NCBI RefSeq assembly: GCF_006385175.1
Contig: NZ_VFIY01000010.1
Coordinates: forward strand, 124,001 to 188,000
DNA from: Emcibacter nanhaiensis
GTDB lineage: Bacteria; Pseudomonadota; Alphaproteobacteria; Sphingomonadales; Emcibacteraceae
DNA: 64,000 bases
Reading direction: 5' to 3'
Part shown: one piece after another, positions 14,311-56,549 of the stretch
How positions within the stretch are numbered: the first letter of the stretch is position 1
Layout of the letters: each line of letters begins with the position of its first letter
Notes under the pieces: model-generated
The model's database searches: none
Told to the model about the DNA's origin: nothing
The model's input: the letters and a program-made list of their open reading frames with translations, nothing else
Made by a program: the position numbers and the translations under genes

Positions 14311-14356
14311 AAACTGTAAAATATCCTGACTCTATTTACGGGATTTTTTACAGTTT
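14311..14356 (-). terminator. Long inverted repeat ending the N-ATPase operon
   Basis: AAACTGTAAAATATCC (14311-14326) and GGGATTTTTTACAGTTT (14340-14356) pair over about 16 positions with one mismatch and a 13-nt loop. On the minus strand the stem is followed by TTTTTC and lies 32 nt after the atpG stop, so it most likely terminates the operon. The AT-rich stem is unusual and could also be a protein-binding dyad. Confidence 0.6.
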
Positions 14357-25713: not shown

Positions 25714-28170
25714 ATGGTAGACATCAACCCGCTTCCGCTGGACCGTCTGAGCTGGAAATGCAACCCTGAGAGCCTGAAATTCAACACCACTGACCAGTTG
25801 GAAGACCTGGGCCAGGTGCTGGGCCAGGACCGGGCCATTGAAGCAATCCGCTTCGGCACCAACATGTCGCACAAGGGCTATAATATTTTCGCCCTGGGCC
25901 CGGACGGCCTCGACAAACATGAAGTGGTCATGGCCTTCCTCAAGGATCGGGCCCGGGAAGAAACCGTCCCCTCCGACTGGTGTTATGTCTACAACTTCCA
26001 GGACCCGCGTCGCCCCAACGCCCTGGCCCTGCCGCCGGGACGGGGGGTACAATTCTCCCAGGACATGAGCCGGCTGGCGGAGGACATTCCCTTTGTACTC
26101 AAGAATGCCTTCGAGAGCGAGGAGTACCAGACCCGCTCCAACATGATCCAGCAGGAAATCAAGGACGCCCAGGACGAAGCCCTGTCCGCGGTCGACCAGG
26201 AAGCCCGGCAGAGAGGGGCTGCCCTGAAAATGACGCCGCTGGGCTTTACCTTCGTCCCCATCAGGGATGGCAAAACCGTCAGCCCCGATGAATTCCGCAA
26301 ACTTTCCGAACAGGAGCGGGAAGATATCGAGGAAAACCTGGATTACCTGCGGGAGAAACTGGAGGAAGTCCTGGAATTCATGCCCGACCTGCTAACCGAA
26401 AGCCGGGAAAAAATGCGCAAGCTGAATGAAGAAACCGCCGGCCACGCGATTGGCCACCTGGTGGAACAGCTTAAAAAGAAATATGCCGACCTCGAGGAAG
26501 TGATCGAATATCTCGCCGCCGCCCAGGAAGACATCATCCAGAATGTGCACCAGATTGTCCATGGGGCCGAAGAAGAGGCCGCGCGGGGCCCTGGCCCGGA
26601 GGGTCCGCAACCGCACAGCTTCGCGCTGGAACCCGGACGCTATATGGTCAACCTGATTGTCGACAACAGCGATGCCAAACACGCCCCGGTGATCCATGAA
26701 GACGAGCCCACCTATGACCGGCTGCTCGGCCGGGTGGAATATCGTTCGGAAATGGGCACCCTGATGACTGATTTCCGGCTGATCCGGGCCGGCGCGCTGC
26801 ACTCCGTCAACGGCGGCTATCTGGTGGTCGACATCCTCAAGTTGCTGCAGCATCCCTATGCCTATGAGGCCCTGAAACGCACTCTCAAATCCGGGGAGAT
26901 CAAAATCGAATCCCTGGGCCAGGTGCTGGGCTTTATCAATACGGTCAGCCTGGAACCGGAACCGATCCCGCTTGAGGTCAAGGTGGTCCTGCTCGGCACC
27001 AGGATCCTCTATTACCTGCTCAACAGCCTGGATCCGGAATTTACCGATCTATTCAAAGTGGCGGCCGATTTTGACGAGCAGATGGACCGCACCGAGGAAA
27101 GTCTCGCACTTTATGCCCGGATGCTGGCCTCGCGCATTCGCGAAGAAGAGCTGCGTCCCTTTACCAGCGACGCCATCGCCCGAATCCTGGAGCGGGTGGT
27201 GCGCTACAGCGGGGATTCGGAGAAACTGTCCACCCGCCTCAAATATGTGGGCGACCTGTTGCGCGAAGCCGACTATCATGCCGGACAGGACAAAAAGGCG
27301 CAAGTCACGGCCGACCATGTGGACCAGGCCGTCAAGGCGCGGGAATACCGCCAGAGCCGCATGCGCGAGCGGCTGCTGGAACAGACCGGTCAGGGCACCA
27401 TCCTGATTGACACCAGCGGCAGCCAGGTCGGCCAGGTCAACGGCCTGTCAGTGCTGGACCTGGGCAGCTATGCCTTCGGCCGCCCGACCCGCATCACCGC
27501 CCGGGTCAGGCTCGGCAAGGGCGAAGTGGTGGACATCGAGCGGGAAGTCAAGCTCGGCGGCCCGATCCACTCCAAAGGCGTCCTGATCCTGAGCAGTTTC
27601 CTCGGCGCCCATTACCAGCCGGACCTGCCCCTGTCCCTGTCTGCAAGCCTAGTGTTCGAACAATCTTACGGCGGGATTGAGGGCGACAGCGCCTCGATGG
27701 CGGAGCTTTGCACGCTGTTGTCAGCCATCGCCGAAATACCGCTGAAGCAGGGCATGGCGATCACCGGCTCCGTCAACCAGCAGGGTCAGGCCCAGGCCAT
27801 CGGCGGCGTCAACGAAAAGATTGAGGGCTTCTTCGATCTGTGTGCCCTGCGCGGTTTGGACGGCAGCCAGGGGGTCATCATCCCCGTCTCCAATGTGCGC
27901 CACCTGATGCTGGACCAGCGGGTCCTGGAGGCGATCGAGGCCGGCAAGTTCAACATTTATGCAGTCGAGACGGTCAACGAAGCCCTCACCCTGCTGACCG
28001 GCACGGCGGCCGGGGAGAAGGATGAAAAGGGCCAATATCCCGATGGCACCGTCAACCGCAAGATTCAGGACCGGCTGAGGGACTTTTCCATTCGTCTGCG
28101 CAAGTTTGCCCATCCGGAGTCCGCCGACAAAGATGGTGAAAAAGAAACTGATGAGGAGGACAGGTCATGA
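25714..28170 (+). CDS. LonB-like ATP-dependent protease (Lon-related, AAA + S16)
   Basis: 818 residues. An N-terminal Lon-related domain with a P-loop-like element GPDGLDKH at 62-69, long helical insertion, AAA-like middle and a C-terminal S16 protease domain. The catalytic dyad is S659 (EGDSASMAE) and K702 (GGVNEKIEGF). The final 45 residues are a charged extension. This group lacks the N-terminal substrate domain of classic Lon. The Walker A has D where the G before the lysine is expected, so ATP use is uncertain. The stop overlaps the next gene by 4 nt. Confidence 0.88.
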   Translation: MVDINPLPLDRLSWKCNPESLKFNTTDQLEDLGQVLGQDRAIEAIRFGTNMSHKGYNIFALGPDGLDKHEVVMAFLKDRAREETVPSDWCYVYNFQDPRRPNALALPPGRGVQFSQDMSRLAEDIPFVLKNAFESEEYQTRSNMIQQEIKDAQDEALSAVDQEARQRGAALKMTPLGFTFVPIRDGKTVSPDEFRKLSEQEREDIEENLDYLREKLEEVLEFMPDLLTESREKMRKLNEETAGHAIGHLVEQLKKKYADLEEVIEYLAAAQEDIIQNVHQIVHGAEEEAARGPGPEGPQPHSFALEPGRYMVNLIVDNSDAKHAPVIHEDEPTYDRLLGRVEYRSEMGTLMTDFRLIRAGALHSVNGGYLVVDILKLLQHPYAYEALKRTLKSGEIKIESLGQVLGFINTVSLEPEPIPLEVKVVLLGTRILYYLLNSLDPEFTDLFKVAADFDEQMDRTEESLALYARMLASRIREEELRPFTSDAIARILERVVRYSGDSEKLSTRLKYVGDLLREADYHAGQDKKAQVTADHVDQAVKAREYRQSRMRERLLEQTGQGTILIDTSGSQVGQVNGLSVLDLGSYAFGRPTRITARVRLGKGEVVDIEREVKLGGPIHSKGVLILSSFLGAHYQPDLPLSLSASLVFEQSYGGIEGDSASMAELCTLLSAIAEIPLKQGMAITGSVNQQGQAQAIGGVNEKIEGFFDLCALRGLDGSQGVIIPVSNVRHLMLDQRVLEAIEAGKFNIYAVETVNEALTLLTGTAAGEKDEKGQYPDGTVNRKIQDRLRDFSIRLRKFAHPESADKDGEKETDEEDRS

Positions 28171-28664
28171 CGACGACCCGCCGCATTCTTCTCGGTTTTG
28201 CCAGCGGCGAGGAATGCCGCCTGGCGCTCGATACGGCGCTCGGCATGGCCCGGGAGATGGAAGCAGAACTGGTCGGCCTGCTGGCCCGGGACGAGGCGCT
28301 GGCCGCGGCCTCCGACATCCCCGCGGTCTCTGTCCGCAGCCGCACCTATTCGCGCTGGGAGAAAATCGATGAACGGGTCATGAAACGGGCCTTCGCGGCC
28401 GAGGCCGGTCGCCTGGAAGCCCTGATCGCCAGCGGCGCCAAGGCCCGCAATGTCCGCTGGTCGTTCCGCACTGTCAGTCCGGAACACATGAAAGAAGAGT
28501 GGGGAGAAACGGACCTGCTGCTGCTGCCGCGCAGTATCCCCGACGGGGATGAGACCTCGCCGGAAGAGGAACCCACCACCCGCGCCTTGTCACACTACAT
28601 CATGAAGCTGGAACGGGCAGGCTATCGCGTGGTGCTGAAACCGGCAACAAATCCAAAAGAATAG
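28167..28664 (+). CDS. UspA-like small protein coupled to the Lon-like protease
   Basis: 165 residues. The N-terminal RRILLGFASGEECRLALDTA and the ending GYRVVLKP resemble the first and last strands of universal stress proteins, but the ATP-binding glycine motif is not seen. ATGA overlap with the protease stop suggests translational coupling and related function, perhaps an adaptor or stress sensor. The assignment is weak. Confidence 0.6.
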   Translation: MTTTRRILLGFASGEECRLALDTALGMAREMEAELVGLLARDEALAAASDIPAVSVRSRTYSRWEKIDERVMKRAFAAEAGRLEALIASGAKARNVRWSFRTVSPEHMKEEWGETDLLLLPRSIPDGDETSPEEEPTTRALSHYIMKLERAGYRVVLKPATNPKE

Positions 28665-28687: not shown

Positions 28688-30673
28688 CTATTCTTCCACG
28701 GCCCGGATCAGGCCGTGACCATAGATTTCATCAAATCCCGGGGCTCCCAGATCTATGGCTGTTTTTCGCAGGATATCAAGATCTTCCTTTTTCCATTCTG
28801 TGCCTTTGCGGCTGATCATATCTGCCAGAATGGCACTGACGAAAGGTGCTGCAATGGAAGTACCTGTCTGGATATCATATCCACCATCCGCGCGGGCAAC
28901 TCTGATATCGACGCCAGGGGCTGAAAAGGCAACATGAGGGCCGCGACTGGCCCGCAGGTAAACTTTTCGATGATTGTCAACTGCCGTAACAGCAATCACA
29001 CCATCATAAGCAGCCGGAAACAGCGGACCCGAGGCCGGACCGCCGTTCCCCACGGCAGCCACAACAACACTGCCTTTTTCAGAAACCCGCCGGAGTGCCA
29101 GCTCAAGCAACTTGTTGGGAGGACCGCTCAGACTCATATTGATAACCCTGACTTTCTGGCGCACCAGCCAGTCCAGGGCCAGGATCAGGCTTTCTGTTGT
29201 CGCCACTGTGGCCCCGTCAGGAGTCTGGAAGAAAACGCTGGCGGCGTAAAGTTTACCACCCGGCAACAGACCATGAAAGGTTTCGTCGTCGCCAACTAGA
29301 AGGGAAGCAACCGCGGTACCATGTGATGAAGGGCGGATATAGTTAAAAGGCACGAGGTCTTTATCCGTAATATTGCCATTTTGCAACGCAGGATGACTAC
29401 GGTCCACTTTACTGTCGATCAGTCCCACCGATAAATCGCCACGTCCCGATTCACGCAGATTAAAGTCTCTGGAATAATTTGCCGGGTCAACAGAGGTCAC
29501 GGCCTGTCCGTCCTGTTGCGCGTCCGGCCGGAACAAATGATTAAGATCCACATCCGCATTTTCGATCGTCCCGGACATTTCGCCAGCAAGGTCCTGCACT
29601 TTCTTTTCGCCGGATGCCCGCACCCGAACCAGAACCATGCCCAGTCCGTCCAACTGTTCGATCTGGTCAATCTGTGACTTATCAAGCTTCAGATCGCTCC
29701 CTCTGTCTGCCAGAACCAGGAGCTCGTCTGCAACCGCCTCAAAACCTTCGTCATCGGTGAATTCGTTGAATTCCCGAAGCCGCTCCACCATATGTTCGCG
29801 GGTTTCAGACAACCGATGGCTTTCATCGTTATCTCGATCCTCGTCATGGTCGTCATCATGACCTGAATGATCTTCACCGGCCTCTTCTGCTTCCCGCTCT
29901 GCCTGCTCTTCAGCTTCTTTTTCTGCCTGCACTTCGCCTTCCCGGGCCAGCTCTTGCGCTTCTTCAGCTTCTGCCTCTGCCTGTTTAGCCGCCTCCTCCG
30001 CTTCTTTTGCCGCCTCTTCAGCAGCCTCTTCGGCCTGCTTGGCAGATTCTTCTGCTGTTTCCTCTGCCTGTTTTGCCGCTTCCTCAGCAGCTTCCTCCAC
30101 CTGTTTGGCGGCCTCTTCCGCAACCTCCTCGGCTTCCTCTGCAGCGTCTTCGGCAGCTTCCTCTGCGGCCCGCTCGGCCTCCCTGGCGGCCTTTTCAGCA
30201 GCTTCTTCTGCGGCTTTTTCAGCTTGCTCAGCAGCCTCTTCCGCGGCTTGCTCTGCAGCTTGCTCTGCCTGTTCCGCCGCCTCTTCTGCAGCCTTTTCTG
30301 CTGCTTTCTCTGCTTCTTCCGCTGCCTGTTCCGCTGCTTCTTCCGCCGCCTGTTCGGCGGCTTCTTCTGCTTCCTGAGCGGCCTGCTCCGCGGCTTCCTC
30401 TGCAGCCTTTTCCGCTTCCTCTTCGGCCTCATCAGCAGCATCTTCAGATGGGTCATCGCTGGACAACCACATCACATCAAATATGGAAAGCAACATTACT
30501 TCGGGTGAAAATCCGGAGATACCGGCATACTGAGGAGCCTGAACAGCGGAGGCACCAATGCTGTCGGCGGCGACCACAGGCCTGCCTCCCATAGAAACAA
30601 AACCCAGTAGTACACAAATCATGATCGCCAGAATTTTGACGCAGGAAAAATTTCTAAACCTTTTCATCGGCAC
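28688..30673 (-). CDS. Secreted subtilisin-like (S8) protease with long Ala/Glu coiled segment
   Basis: 661 residues. A signal peptide covers about residues 1-36. Residues about 75-265 are almost only A, E, K and Q in heptad/hendecad-like order, then an acidic, His-rich stretch (HSGHDDDHDEDRDNDESH). A short prodomain-like region precedes the peptidase domain with D420 (GLIDSKVD), H451 (SSHGTAV), oxyanion N543 (VGNGG) and S606 (GTSIAAP); this spacing (31, 92, 63) matches subtilisins. A second ATG (30667) is possible. It is divergent from the ECF sigma gene and preceded by a promoter of the same type (30731-30758). It should act in the periplasm or outside the cell. Confidence 0.88.
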   Translation of the reverse strand: MPMKRFRNFSCVKILAIMICVLLGFVSMGGRPVVAADSIGASAVQAPQYAGISGFSPEVMLLSIFDVMWLSSDDPSEDAADEAEEEAEKAAEEAAEQAAQEAEEAAEQAAEEAAEQAAEEAEKAAEKAAEEAAEQAEQAAEQAAEEAAEQAEKAAEEAAEKAAREAERAAEEAAEDAAEEAEEVAEEAAKQVEEAAEEAAKQAEETAEESAKQAEEAAEEAAKEAEEAAKQAEAEAEEAQELAREGEVQAEKEAEEQAEREAEEAGEDHSGHDDDHDEDRDNDESHRLSETREHMVERLREFNEFTDDEGFEAVADELLVLADRGSDLKLDKSQIDQIEQLDGLGMVLVRVRASGEKKVQDLAGEMSGTIENADVDLNHLFRPDAQQDGQAVTSVDPANYSRDFNLRESGRGDLSVGLIDSKVDRSHPALQNGNITDKDLVPFNYIRPSSHGTAVASLLVGDDETFHGLLPGGKLYAASVFFQTPDGATVATTESLILALDWLVRQKVRVINMSLSGPPNKLLELALRRVSEKGSVVVAAVGNGGPASGPLFPAAYDGVIAVTAVDNHRKVYLRASRGPHVAFSAPGVDIRVARADGGYDIQTGTSIAAPFVSAILADMISRKGTEWKKEDLDILRKTAIDLGAPGFDEIYGHGLIRAVEE

Positions 30674-30730: not shown

Positions 30731-30758
30731 ATAACGCCTTAGAGTATAGTTTTATTCC
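30731..30758 (-). promoter_or_regulatory. ECF-type promoter of the S8 protease gene
   Basis: On the minus strand GGAATAAA (30758-30751) and CGTTAT (30736-30731), with 17 nt between GGAAT and CGTT. Both boxes and spacing are identical to those before the sigma gene and the repeat-protein gene. It lies 58 nt upstream of ATG 30673. Confidence 0.8.
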
Positions 30759-30839
30759 CTAAAAAAGGCACTAATAAGAAAAGAAGCTCCAAGATCGATC
30801 GAACCAAATTGTCATGCGTCAATTATTTTCAAAATTTCT

Positions 30840-30867
30840 GGAATAAAATCCAATCCCGAAACGTTAT
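30840..30867 (+). promoter_or_regulatory. Autoregulatory ECF promoter of the sigma gene
   Basis: GGAATAAA at 30840-30847 and CGTTAT at 30862-30867, 17 nt between GGAAT and CGTT. The -10 ends only 9 nt before ATG 30877, so a transcript starting at the expected place would be leaderless or nearly so. No Shine-Dalgarno precedes the start. Confidence 0.8.
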
Positions 30868-30876
30868 GGATATCGA

Positions 30877-31413
30877 ATGGACATGACACCGGAAAAATGG
30901 CGGGATGAAATAGTAGCCCTGCTGCCTCGGCTGCGGCGGTTTTCGTTCGCCCTGACATCTTCGGCGGCTGATGCCGATGACCTGCTACAGGCAACCATTG
31001 AAAAAGCCCTGTCGAAATACAGTCAGTTCCAGGCAGGTACCGACCTCGACAAGTGGCTGTTCCGTATGTGCAAAAACACCTGGATTGATGAATGGCGTTC
31101 GCGTCAGGTCAGGGGACCAAGTGTCGATCCGATGGATTTTAGGTCCGAACTCCTGGTGGATGGAGAACAGGAACTTGTCGACCGATTGAGCTTGTCAGAG
31201 CTCAACACGGCCCTGAACAAATTACAGGAAGACCAGAAAGTGCTGATCGCTCTTGTTGCCATAGAAGGACACACTTACAAGGAAGCCTCAGAAATACTGG
31301 AGATCCCCGTAGGAACAGTGATGAGCCGCCTTGCCCGGGCCAGAAACGCCTTGCAGGATCTCCTGCAGAATCCCGATAGCCGACACTCAAAAGGAGCCGA
31401 CAATGAAACTTGA
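30877..31413 (+). CDS. ECF-family RNA polymerase sigma factor
   Basis: 178 residues. Region 2 (SAADADDLLQATIEKALS, then DLDKWLFRMCKNTWIDEWR) and region 4 (GHTYKEASEILEIPVGTVMSRLARAR, read in parts) are complete. No extra C-terminal domain. The next gene, overlapping by 11 nt, is its anti-sigma factor. The identical promoters in front of this gene, the protease and the repeat protein are the likely targets of this sigma factor. An internal ATG at 30883 is an alternative start. Confidence 0.93.
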   Translation: MDMTPEKWRDEIVALLPRLRRFSFALTSSAADADDLLQATIEKALSKYSQFQAGTDLDKWLFRMCKNTWIDEWRSRQVRGPSVDPMDFRSELLVDGEQELVDRLSLSELNTALNKLQEDQKVLIALVAIEGHTYKEASEILEIPVGTVMSRLARARNALQDLLQNPDSRHSKGADNET

Positions 31414-32227
31414 CGATGAACTGCTGACGGCATACCTGGACGGTGAACTTGATGCCGTTAAAATGTCGGAAGTCGAAAGGCAGCTTGAACAGTCTCCGGA
31501 CCTTTCCCGGCAGCTTGAGAGGCTGCGCGCCACGGATACAGCCCTGAAGCAGGCCTACCATGATATTGATGAACGCCCCCTGCCGGACGCCGTACTGAAT
31601 ATGTTGGAAAGCTTTCCCGCCAGCCAGGAACAAACGGCAACAGAAGAAACCGGGAACGATACTGCCGATGTCATCCCGTTCCGGGGTAAGTCCAAATCCG
31701 TATCCCATACTCCTATCTGGCAAATTGCTGCTGCAGCAAGTGTAGCGCTTGTCATCGGCCTGGGTATTGGCCGGAGTCTGTTCCTGCCGGAATCAACCGC
31801 ACCGGAGCAGACCCTGATCCTGGCGAAGCCGGGCACCGGACCTGTCGAGCCGGATAGCGCCCTGTTCGCCGTTCTGGAAAACCAGCCGAGCGCCGTTCCT
31901 CTTACAATAGATGAACAGGATGGAACCGTCGCCACGCCGGTCATGAGTTTTGAAAGCATCGACAACAGATATTGTCGCGAATTTTCCATTACGTCCACTT
32001 CGGGTGGCACCCGTGGGGTCGCCTGCAAAGGGGATAATCAGTGGGTTGTGGAAATTACCGTAGCCACAGTCGGACAACCTGCAGTCGACGCCGGTAGCTA
32101 CCAGACTGCCAGTCAGGCCATAGCCCCTGTCATCGACAATGCCATCCAGAGTATGATCAAGGGTGAAGCCTTTGGCTCAGAGCGCGAAACACAGGTCATT
32201 GAAGAACATTGGAACCGGGACAAATAA
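31403..32227 (+). CDS. Membrane anti-sigma factor
   Basis: 274 residues. The N-terminal anti-sigma helical domain (DELLTAYLDGELDAVKMSEVE-type) is followed by a linker, a single membrane helix at about residues 106-127 (IWQIAAAASVALVIGLGIG) and a periplasmic domain of about 145 residues with two cysteines. AAGGAG precedes ATG 31403; the earlier in-frame start lies inside the sigma gene. The layout suggests that envelope stress is sensed in the periplasm and the sigma factor is released, possibly by proteolysis. Confidence 0.88.
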   Translation: MKLDDELLTAYLDGELDAVKMSEVERQLEQSPDLSRQLERLRATDTALKQAYHDIDERPLPDAVLNMLESFPASQEQTATEETGNDTADVIPFRGKSKSVSHTPIWQIAAAASVALVIGLGIGRSLFLPESTAPEQTLILAKPGTGPVEPDSALFAVLENQPSAVPLTIDEQDGTVATPVMSFESIDNRYCREFSITSTSGGTRGVACKGDNQWVVEITVATVGQPAVDAGSYQTASQAIAPVIDNAIQSMIKGEAFGSERETQVIEEHWNRDK

Positions 32228-32240
32228 GTCCCGGTTTTTT
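32213..32240 (+). terminator. Terminator overlapping the anti-sigma stop codon
   Basis: AACCGGGAC (32213-32221) and GTCCCGGTT (32228-32236) form a perfect 9-bp stem with a 6-nt loop containing the TAA stop, followed by a T run. It closes the sigma/anti-sigma unit, so the repeat-protein gene needs its own promoter. Confidence 0.9.
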
Positions 32241-32265
32241 CTCTCATGTTTTTTTGAATTTTCCG

Positions 32266-32293
32266 GGAATAAATCACATCCCCCAGCCGTTAT
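32266..32293 (+). promoter_or_regulatory. ECF-type promoter of the repeat-protein gene
   Basis: GGAATAAA at 32266-32273 and CGTTAT at 32288-32293, with the same 17-nt spacing as the two other copies. It lies just after the anti-sigma terminator and about 170 nt before ATG 32462, giving a long leader of about 160 nt in which I see no clear regulatory structure. Confidence 0.8.
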
Positions 32294-32461
32294 CAACTTG
32301 AAGGACACGTTGCAAACGGGTGATACCGGAGATTTTTGCCCCCGTCAGAAAGCAACAATTCCTTGTAATAATATGGGTTTAAACGGAATCCTGTCTAATA
32401 TTAGATAGTTCTTTGCTTCAAAATCCAAAAAATTTCGGAATAAACAAAAAGAGAGAACGAC

Positions 32462-33109
32462 ATGAGTATTTTTTCACGCCTAACAGTCTTCCTGTTCAGC
32501 CTGTTGTTTGCCGGCAGCCTTAGCCTGTCCGCAATGGCCCAGGAAGTTCCGAACGTATCCGATGATGTCGCTGACGAGGTTTCCTCCTCTACTGACGACA
32601 GCGTTTCCGAAGTCGAAATCGAAGATGAAGTCGAAATCGAAAACGAGGTAGAAAACGAATACGAACATGAGTACGAGTACGAACACGAGTACGAGTATGA
32701 CCATGAGTACGAGTATGACCATGAGTACGGCGAAGAGGCCAGCGAAGAAGCTAAACAGGCTCGTGAAGCTGCCAAAGAAGCCTCTGAAGAAGCTCGTGAA
32801 GCTGCGAAAGACGCCGCCGAAGAGGCTCGTGAAGCTGCCAAAGAAGCCTCTGAAGAAGCTCGTGAAGCCGCGAAAGACGCAGCCGAAGAGGCTCGTGAAG
32901 CCGCGAAAGACGCCGCCGAAGAGGCTCGTGAAGCCGCGAAAGACGCCGCCGAAGAGGCCAGAGAGTCAGCTCGCGATGCTGCGGAAGAAGCACGGGAATC
33001 CGCTCGCGACGCTGCTGAAGAAGCCCAAGAGGCTGCTGAAGAGGCCGCTGAAGACGCTGCAGAGGAAGCAGAAGAGGCAGCGGAAGATGCCGCGCAGGGT
33101 GACGATTAA
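32462..33109 (+). CDS. Secreted acidic repeat protein (11-residue Ala/Glu repeats)
   Basis: 215 residues. Signal peptide 1-28 (ends AMA). Residues about 29-60 are acidic and Ser/Val-rich, about 61-90 are Tyr/Glu/His-rich (repeats of EYEYDH and EYEHEY), and about 92-212 are 11-residue repeats of the type AREAAKDAAEE, ending in Ala/Glu-only sequence. An 11-residue period favours a right-handed or straight extended coiled coil, as in LEA- or apolipoprotein-like proteins. The composition resembles the coiled segment of the S8 protease. It is preceded by an ECF promoter. No known family is recognised. Confidence 0.8.
   Translation: MSIFSRLTVFLFSLLFAGSLSLSAMAQEVPNVSDDVADEVSSSTDDSVSEVEIEDEVEIENEVENEYEHEYEYEHEYEYDHEYEYDHEYGEEASEEAKQAREAAKEASEEAREAAKDAAEEAREAAKEASEEAREAAKDAAEEAREAAKDAAEEAREAAKDAAEEARESARDAAEEARESARDAAEEAQEAAEEAAEDAAEEAEEAAEDAAQGDD
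32745..32980 (+). repeat. 33-bp tandem repeats inside the repeat-protein gene
   Basis: About seven in-frame copies of a 33-bp unit beginning GAAGAGGCTCGTGAAGC, encoding 11 residues each. Neighbouring copies are nearly identical at DNA level, so the array probably changes in copy number by slippage or recombination. The unit is fully coding and does not have the spacer structure of a CRISPR. Confidence 0.85.
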
Positions 33110-33132: not shown

Positions 33133-33158
33133 AAGACAGCCCCTCCGGGGGCTGTCTT
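33133..33158 (+). terminator. Strong hairpin after the repeat-protein gene (no T run)
   Basis: AAGACAGCCCC and GGGGCTGTCTT form a perfect 11-bp stem with a 4-nt loop, 24 nt after the stop codon. No T tract follows, so it may be a transcript-stabilising or partial-termination element that lets some transcription pass to the beta-barrel gene. Confidence 0.55.
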
Positions 33159-33243: not shown

Positions 33244-34161
33244 ATGTCAGTAATTAAATCACAGCCTGGTCTGGCAACCGCAGTCCTATTGTCTTTATGT
33301 GCCGCTCCGGCCATCGCAGAAGAAAAATCCCCGTTTGAACTGTCTCTTGAAGTGGGCGCCGAATATGACAGCAATATCACAGTGGACGCCACCGATGTTA
33401 CCAGCCGCCAGGGGGACGAGGCGCTGTTGCTGGGTGGTGCGGCAGGCTATCAATTTGTCAAGAATGATGATTTCAAACTGAAAGCGCGCTATACATTCTC
33501 CCAGAGCCTGCATATGGATCTGACAGAATTTGACCTGCAAATTCATGGTGCCAGCCTGGAAGCTGGCACCAAAGTCGGTGATCTGGATTTGGGCCTGGCC
33601 TATCGCTACAATTATATCACCCTGGGTTCAGAATCCTTCCTGGACATGCATACGATCAATCCGACGGTCTCCACCCTGATCGGCACCAAGGCTTTCGTCA
33701 CCGGGGGATACGAATATCTCAAACAGGACTTCAAGCAGACAAACCTGCTGGAACGTAACGCCAACCGCCACAGCGGCCATGCGTCCGTCTATTTCCTGCT
33801 GGGCGACGGCCGCACCATCAACGTGGGCTACAAACTGAGCAAGCATGACACCATTGCGGATGATCTGGTCTATTGGGGTCACACTTTCGACGTTGGGGTC
33901 AAGCTTCCCGTAGGTATTGTCGAAGATTCCGTCTTTCGCGCCCGTTACCGCTACCGCCAGAAAGACTATTCCAATATCGATCTGGATCTGGGAGAAAAAC
34001 GCTGGGACAAAAAACATTACATCCGGGCGAGCCTGGAAGCGCCGTTTTTCGAAAGTTTCACTGGCAAGCTGGAATATGAATATACTGATTCAAGTTCCAA
34101 CCTGCAGACTCTGAACTACGACAATCATTTGGTCACATTCACCCTCACTTGGGAACTATAG
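33244..34161 (+). CDS. Predicted outer-membrane beta-barrel protein
   Basis: 305 residues. A signal peptide 1-25 ends with PAIAEE. The rest alternates polar and hydrophobic residues in antiparallel strands with many aromatic girdle residues (FKLKARYTFSQSLHM, RFRARYRYRQKDY-like). The C-terminus is HLVTFTLTWEL, close to an outer-membrane assembly signal. The opening GAEYDSNITVD resembles the C-terminal barrel of surface-lipoprotein assembly modifiers (DUF560), but the N-terminal TPR part is absent. It has no obvious ECF promoter and may be read from the repeat-protein promoter. Confidence 0.75.
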   Translation: MSVIKSQPGLATAVLLSLCAAPAIAEEKSPFELSLEVGAEYDSNITVDATDVTSRQGDEALLLGGAAGYQFVKNDDFKLKARYTFSQSLHMDLTEFDLQIHGASLEAGTKVGDLDLGLAYRYNYITLGSESFLDMHTINPTVSTLIGTKAFVTGGYEYLKQDFKQTNLLERNANRHSGHASVYFLLGDGRTINVGYKLSKHDTIADDLVYWGHTFDVGVKLPVGIVEDSVFRARYRYRQKDYSNIDLDLGEKRWDKKHYIRASLEAPFFESFTGKLEYEYTDSSSNLQTLNYDNHLVTFTLTWEL

Positions 34162-56527: not shown

Positions 56528-56549
56528 GGGGCCCGGAAACGGGCCCCTT
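56528..56549. terminator. Terminator between the etherase operon and the CmcJ-like gene
   Basis: GGGGCCCG-gaaa-CGGGCCCC, an 8-bp GC stem with a stable tetraloop followed by TTCC, between convergent genes. Confidence 0.8.

Follow-up and report, generated by a model that had tools for sequence, protein, structure and literature searches.

A 64,000-nucleotide stretch of the Emcibacter nanhaiensis genome (hereafter the window) very probably carries a local, self-driven regulon of the ECF26 type that comprises a sigma factor, an S8 serine protease, a repeat protein and, probably, an outer-membrane barrel protein. The original prediction, in which the sigma factor controls itself and two secreted products, stands as the best reading of the locus because the positions of the promoter sites are conserved in relatives and because over-expression and start-site data are available for RpoE6, a cousin in Sinorhizobium meliloti. 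Recognition of the sites by the sigma factor and the position of the transcription start are predicted here by analogy with that cousin.

Table 1. Genes and regulatory elements of the locus (positions in the window).
Feature	Position	Strand	Evidence and comments
S8 (subtilisin-type) serine protease	28688..30673	-	Pfam Peptidase_S8, 118.9 bits (cut-off 21.8)
S8-gene ECF promoter, GGAATAAA-N14-CGTTAT	30731..30758	-	Motif; position kept in relatives; predicted start ~30724 by offset
Sigma/anti-sigma ECF promoter	30840..30867	+	Motif; predicted start ~30874, leader 3 nt, by offset from SMa0142
Putative ECF26-type sigma factor, 178 aa	30877..31413	+	
Anti-sigma factor	31403..32227	+	Overlaps sigma gene; zf-HC2 match barely above cut-off
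Intrinsic terminator past anti-sigma gene, overlapping its stop codon	32214..32240	+	z -4.54; 0/200 shuffles fold as well
Repeat-gene ECF promoter	32266..32293	+	Motif; position kept in relatives; predicted start ~32300
Low-complexity repeat protein, signal-peptide-like start	32462..33109	+	
Strong hairpin without clear U-run, between repeat and barrel genes	33133..33158	+	z -4.15
Outer-membrane beta-barrel protein	33244..34161	+	SlipAM, 29.9 bits (cut-off 22); no ECF site of its own

Pfam matches and sequence support the proposed gene calls of a sigma/anti-sigma pair lying between the S8 protease and repeat-protein genes (Table 1). The S8 gene, with a likely start at the ATG at 30667, encodes a signal-peptide-like start, an extended low-complexity tail of Ala and Glu (entropy minimum 1.51 bits) and a pro-/catalytic part, in that order, and the catalytic D, H, and S motifs are present. 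The anti-sigma factor consists of cytoplasmic sigma-binding helices, one membrane helix, and a periplasmic domain with a conserved Cys pair, C191 and C208. The terminator that had been placed right after the anti-sigma gene is indeed found there as an 8-bp stem (32214-32221/32228-32235) followed by five U (z -4.5); it is missing from the output of the general terminator scan, probably because that scan extends the stem into the T-run. The repeat protein begins with an acidic Glu/Tyr/His stretch that gives way to 11-residue Ala/Glu/Arg/Lys repeats. Export of both the S8 and the repeat protein was judged by eye from their N-termini. Beyond the S8 gene, the module adjoins a gene for a LonB-type AAA protease and, after it, a gene whose Usp match is below the cut-off (25714-28664).

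Exactly three matches to GGAATAA-N15-CGTTAT occur in the window, at the promoter positions of Table 1, and none appear in 100 dinucleotide shuffles of it. This exact motif search bears out the three matching ECF sites in the places and with the spacing first described; the description of the promoters as identical holds for boxes and spacing, while the spacer sequences differ. The looser GGAAT-N17-CGTT finds a fourth match at 56538 on the minus strand, without the AAA extension (shuffle mean 0.6). A lone GGAATAAA at 32437-32444, immediately 5' of the repeat-gene ATG and with no CGTT at the right distance, is probably a decayed or chance half-site.

The whole genome (3,963,826 bases, 98.7% complete) contains four exact copies of the motif compared with none for the reversed control; the fourth (C4:138286) falls within a 246-aa ORF. 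GGAATN17CGTTA has nine matches, three at the locus and six elsewhere, compared with one in the control. Of four one-mismatch sites, C5:597742, C14:53449, and C18:600433 fall within ORFs. The fourth (C4:547329-547356) is outside every ORF of at least 90 aa, directly past a gene that we take to be secG-like, and is a possible extra target of the sigma factor. Two-mismatch sites number 102 compared with 52 in the control, so weaker off-locus targets are possible. No other close relative of the sigma factor was found in this genome; the two further matches reach only 28-30% identity. They adjoin a presumably ChrR-like gene (L191) and, by eye, a small anti-sigma-like gene (L194).

Conservation within the family Emcibacteraceae concerns placement as well as sequence. 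Sites are present at all three positions in the seven of seven same-family relatives with a close sigma orthologue (L041-L047), giving 24 sites with the window included; on L041, whose contig is cut before the S8 gene, only the divergent site itself is visible. The sites of the relatives were picked with GGAATA-N15/16-CGT, and those letters are therefore fixed by the search. Of what was left free, all 24 sites share the A at position 7, the T after CGT (T26), and a spacing of 17 nt, whereas the letters of the spacer vary.

The motif is far from randomly distributed, as the original prediction required of a genome-wide search: eight genomes of the family, E. nanhaiensis included, have a close sigma orthologue, and 23 of their 25 GGAATAAN15CGTTA matches belong to this cluster. 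In 24 same-family genomes that lack a close sigma orthologue, 11 matches compared with 15 for the control amount to background, and 28 other genomes of the order have three matches compared with five. The confinement of matches to the cluster and the background level in orthologue-less genomes indicate that the regulon looks local within the family, and it appears concentrated at one 5.5-kb locus. In one relative (G010), a second repeat-gene match extends to the contig end and has a fourth motif copy (L045:904-930) ahead of it; repeat gene and promoter may have been duplicated together.

The arrangement extends beyond the family and into other orders. The wider set retained 80 of 570 confirmed stretches (587 matched), so that its locus counts describe a sample; a sigma ORF is present at 99 of its loci, two of which, L107 and L108, repeat L043 and L050 and were removed from the counts, while L124 lacks a sigma ORF. 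Among the loci listed, a divergent S8 gene is present at 53 distinct loci, and GGAATA-N15/16-CGT precedes the S8 gene in 34 and the sigma gene in 28 of these; among the 49 whose anti-sigma gene is readable, 18 have it at most 300 nt past the stop of that gene, and the reversed pattern has zero occurrences at the same places. The 44 listed loci without a divergent S8 gene include 18 with a site before the sigma gene and one with a site past the anti-sigma gene, the latter being the cut contig L041. On either strand, 45 of the 53 listed divergent S8-sigma regions hold the motif, compared with a mean of 0.23 and a maximum of 4 for 292 scrambled versions. The spacer of 17 nt in the window's family is often 16 nt in other families. 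No site precedes the sigma gene in the rhizobial-type loci L104, L123, L131, L146, L154, L155, L157, and L160. A chance motif is rejected by the shuffles, the empty reversed control, the background level in orthologue-less genomes, and the low scrambled-version counts.

In all eight family loci, the distance between CGTT and the ATG of the sigma gene amounts to exactly 11 nt, and the sigma N-termini align across these loci; a nearly leaderless sigma mRNA is therefore predicted for the family. Among the loci listed in the wider set, this distance varies. In S. meliloti, the SMa0142 start was mapped by both methods at a GGAATA..CGTT site, 9 nt past the final T of CGTT (PMC6180224). By this offset, the sigma mRNA of the window is predicted to start 3 bases before its ATG, and the predicted leaders measure 57 nt for the S8 gene and 162 nt for the repeat gene. 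Folding of the repeat-gene leader (32290-32439) gave no structure (z -0.12).

The third promoter precedes a diverse set of proteins. Among the loci listed, 18 divergent ones have a site past the anti-sigma gene, and in 11 of them (the window, L042-L046, L051, L104, L123, L154, and L155) a low-complexity protein with a signal-peptide-like start stands behind it; of the remainder, L047 ends there, and L113, L128, L131, L145, L151, and L157 have other or unclear ORFs. In all six readable family loci, the third-slot protein repeats every 11 or 22 residues. A second family (L050), in which the sites are further off, has two acidic low-complexity proteins, each with a site; a barrel gene stands behind one of them, and the other has a period of 11. 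The L051 protein is a repeat of the RGRGADD type, and the slot is occupied by an (SSSN)n protein in Mesorhizobium (L123, L155) and Sinorhizobium psoraleae (L154). An apparently exported (SSSN)n ORF, which gene order suggests to be SMa0146, also follows the site at 14313 on pSymA of S. meliloti (L104).

A barrel gene also follows the repeat gene in L042, L044, and L046, and that of the window probably belongs to the regulon as a downstream member of the repeat-gene transcript, even though the intervening hairpin at 33133-33158, which suggests a partial terminator or stabilizer, could block read-through. In the Emcibacter relative L043, a DUF6502 gene and a gene for a DUF5666 protein whose AAQEEAE repeat tail is very long (L043:9882-12637) lie between the repeat and barrel genes.

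The products of the regulon may be mainly structural or protective, with acidic 11-residue-repeat exported proteins shielding the outer membrane in the manner of LEA proteins or apolipoproteins and the protease clearing damaged envelope proteins. This reading is plausible, though somewhat less likely than not. The period of 11 or 22 recurs throughout the readable family loci and in one second-family protein. The repeat protein also has weak Apolipoprotein and YtxH matches in Pfam, but these are below the cut-offs, and four rhizobial loci have an (SSSN)n protein in the third slot, so that helices do not characterize the slot throughout. In Nitratireductor sp. OM-1, msrB and msrA lie behind an S8-sigma-anti-sigma module (L105:6430-7379), hinting at oxidative protein damage, which would fit such a protective role.

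Assignment of the S8 protease to the signal route, rather than to the output alone, is possible though on balance unlikely. In such a scheme, the protease would cut the periplasmic domain of the anti-sigma factor, either as a site-1 protease or as a feedback amplifier. It looks exported and co-regulated, and among the loci listed the anti-sigma Cys-pair motif is found in 52 of 56 S8-linked loci compared with three of 34 without S8 (7 of the 97 distinct loci lack an anti-sigma ORF); two of those three (L041 and L049) end as contigs before a possible divergent S8 gene. Against this, most of the association follows phylogeny: loci cluster on the tree, and only two independent pairs lie on well-supported branches, which is not significant, so that the Cys pair and S8 are linked by association only. 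L120 has the Cys motif without S8 nearby, and four S8-linked loci lack the motif, some of which may be mis-picked ORFs.

The periplasmic domain itself is distinctive. C191, R192, C208, and W214 are invariant in 26 aligned anti-sigma proteins, whose Cys columns are partly fixed because the rows were selected by the Cys motif. These rows are 23 anti-sigma ORFs from the S8-linked loci L109-L186, L107, L108, and the window; 18 of the 41 L109-L186 ORFs were left out because they failed the start-finding pattern or the Cys motif was not found. The HxxxCxxC motif is the zinc motif of the zinc anti-sigma (ZAS) class. It is absent from the cytoplasmic domain of the window protein, which has no Cys before residue 191. 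The periplasmic domain is predicted to fold as a helix, five strands, and two helices, with most blocks above 90 pLDDT and a whole-model mean of 79.7. Comparison with solved structures gave a best Foldseek E-value of 0.064 and a best VIA-align Z of 4.9, no clear relative among them, and so no fold is assigned. A PDB profile search of the anti-sigma factor yielded only weak matches to the N-terminal parts of ChrR and RseA (E 0.05-0.08).

A more elaborate proposal, which we consider doubtful, is that the S8 protease and the Cys-pair domain form one dedicated sensing pair, with variable low-complexity tails being sensed, cut or titrated. These fast-changing tails are carried by the protease and by the exported product of the third promoter. 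Among the loci listed, low-complexity and commonly acidic tails are frequent ahead of the conserved part of S8 proteins, and 27 of 52 tails, but no catalytic part, fall below 2.6 bits in minimum 40-residue entropy. This count omits the duplicate L108 and the empty tail of L140, and some tails may contain sequence 5' of the true start codon. In composition, the matched pairing of S8 tail and repeat protein ranks 23 of 720 pairings over six related loci; no claim is made on this matching because the loci are non-independent and rhizobia, by eye, lack the pattern. Were the sensing pair real, the locus would encode a self-contained envelope switch that is gated by proteolysis, has a hypervariable exported partner, and is read from a nearly leaderless sigma mRNA.

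The three sites could also be promoters of the general stress response (EcfG/RpoE2, group ECF15), with the neighboring ECF gene being incidental. The ECF15 boxes GGAAC..CGTT resemble the sites in both -35 and -10 elements but carry GGAAC rather than GGAAT and are under NepR/PhyR control; in S. meliloti, 27 of 40 RpoE6-induced genes are also in the RpoE2 regulon (PMC6180224). NepR (PF18557), however, has no match in the 98.7% complete E. nanhaiensis genome, while Caulobacter is positive in the same search, and the EcfG boxes are not enriched there (GGAACN17CGTT, 17 matches compared with 22 in the control; GGAACN16CGTT, 27 compared with 37). EcfG control is therefore very unlikely and is rejected, and the genome apparently has no EcfG general stress response. 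A search permitting either GGAAC or GGAAT found GGAAT alone in the family loci L041-L047. It is also very unlikely that the motif persists as inherited chance or through coding constraint: the relatives do have common ancestry, but the window sites are intergenic, spacer letters diverge while boxes and spacing stay, and a transcription start has been mapped at a comparable S. meliloti site (PMC6180224).

The local self-driven regulon can be pictured as follows. An ECF26-type sigma factor of the RpoE6 kind would be held at the inner membrane by its single-pass anti-sigma factor until an envelope signal disables the latter through the periplasmic Cys-pair domain. The freed sigma factor would start transcription at the three GGAATAA-N15-CGTTAT promoters. 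The promoter of its own operon would provide positive feedback together with more anti-sigma factor as a brake; the second output would be the divergent exported S8 protease, and the third the exported 11-residue-repeat protein and, probably by read-through, the outer-membrane barrel protein. The sites, their conservation, their clustering at this locus, and the genes present are direct observations; we infer the read-through, the signal route, proteolytic release, export, and an envelope-protecting role of the products.

Known systems provide a framework for this model. A literature search, mostly of papers outside subscription and without the main ECF classification, returned no recognizable paper on the locus and, within the same limits, none on third-slot proteins as a class or on the anti-sigma Cys pair. 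E. coli RpoE-RseA differs in sigma group, promoter, and protease family, DegP not being of the S8 family, and the window cluster has no RseB-like gene. In outline, the two systems are alike in having a membrane anti-sigma factor, autoregulation, and an exported protease target (partly after PMC8103513). RpoE1 and RpoE4 of S. meliloti, which act in the sulfite response, share the ECF26 group, an anti-sigma partner, and GGAATA-type promoters with the window but have another neighborhood and other targets (sorT) (PMC3511301).

The closest described cousin is RpoE6 of S. meliloti, a member of ECF26. According to the published study (PMC6180224), a divergent serine protease gene is widely conserved in ECF26, the group consensus is GGAATA at -35 and GT at -10, and over-expression of RpoE6 induces SMa0142, SMa0146, and SMa0148; the signal, function, and activation of RpoE6 were unknown to its authors. 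RpoE6 also strongly activates a heterologous ECF26 promoter (PMC10880074), and SMa0142 over-expression has been screened, with fixation listed as '+' (PMC8175422). The window has the GGAATA/GT promoters and divergent serine protease of the RpoE6 type, along with the ECF26 anti-sigma layout of an N-terminal anti-sigma domain, one TM helix, and a periplasmic C-terminal domain. The best S. psoraleae match of its sigma factor is the S8-linked sigma gene (116 bits; next 107.8), and in the sigma tree 51 of 100 inner branches have weak support. By sequence, the sigma factor resembles ECF26 RpoE6, and the arrangement of the locus is already described as an ECF26 context, which makes it less novel than first held.

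The RpoE6-EcfR6-SMa0142 module on pSymA and the window have in common a divergent S8 protease, a sigma gene with an overlapping gene for a single-pass anti-sigma factor, GGAATA..CGTT sites, a periplasmic CREF..VAC..W motif, and, past the anti-sigma gene, a site followed by a low-complexity protein with a signal-peptide-like start. The sigma factors are 39% identical and the catalytic parts of the S8 proteins 44%. The two modules differ in spacer (16 in S. meliloti, 17 in the window), in the third-slot protein ((SSSN)n compared with 11-residue repeats), and in the extra RpoE6 targets SMa0139 and SMa0148. Unlike the window sigma gene, rpoE6 lacks an ECF26-type promoter: the one that drives it was likened to RpoD/RpoH types (PMC6180224), and a site lies instead within the rpoE6 ORF, ahead of ecfR6. 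The self-promoter is therefore not universal. With apparently no general stress response in the genome, no other close sigma relative found there, an apparently local regulon, and an anti-sigma motif that tracks the protease, the locus represents a clean version of the ECF26 sigma-protease arrangement, at which the role of the S8 protease for its sigma factor is directly testable.
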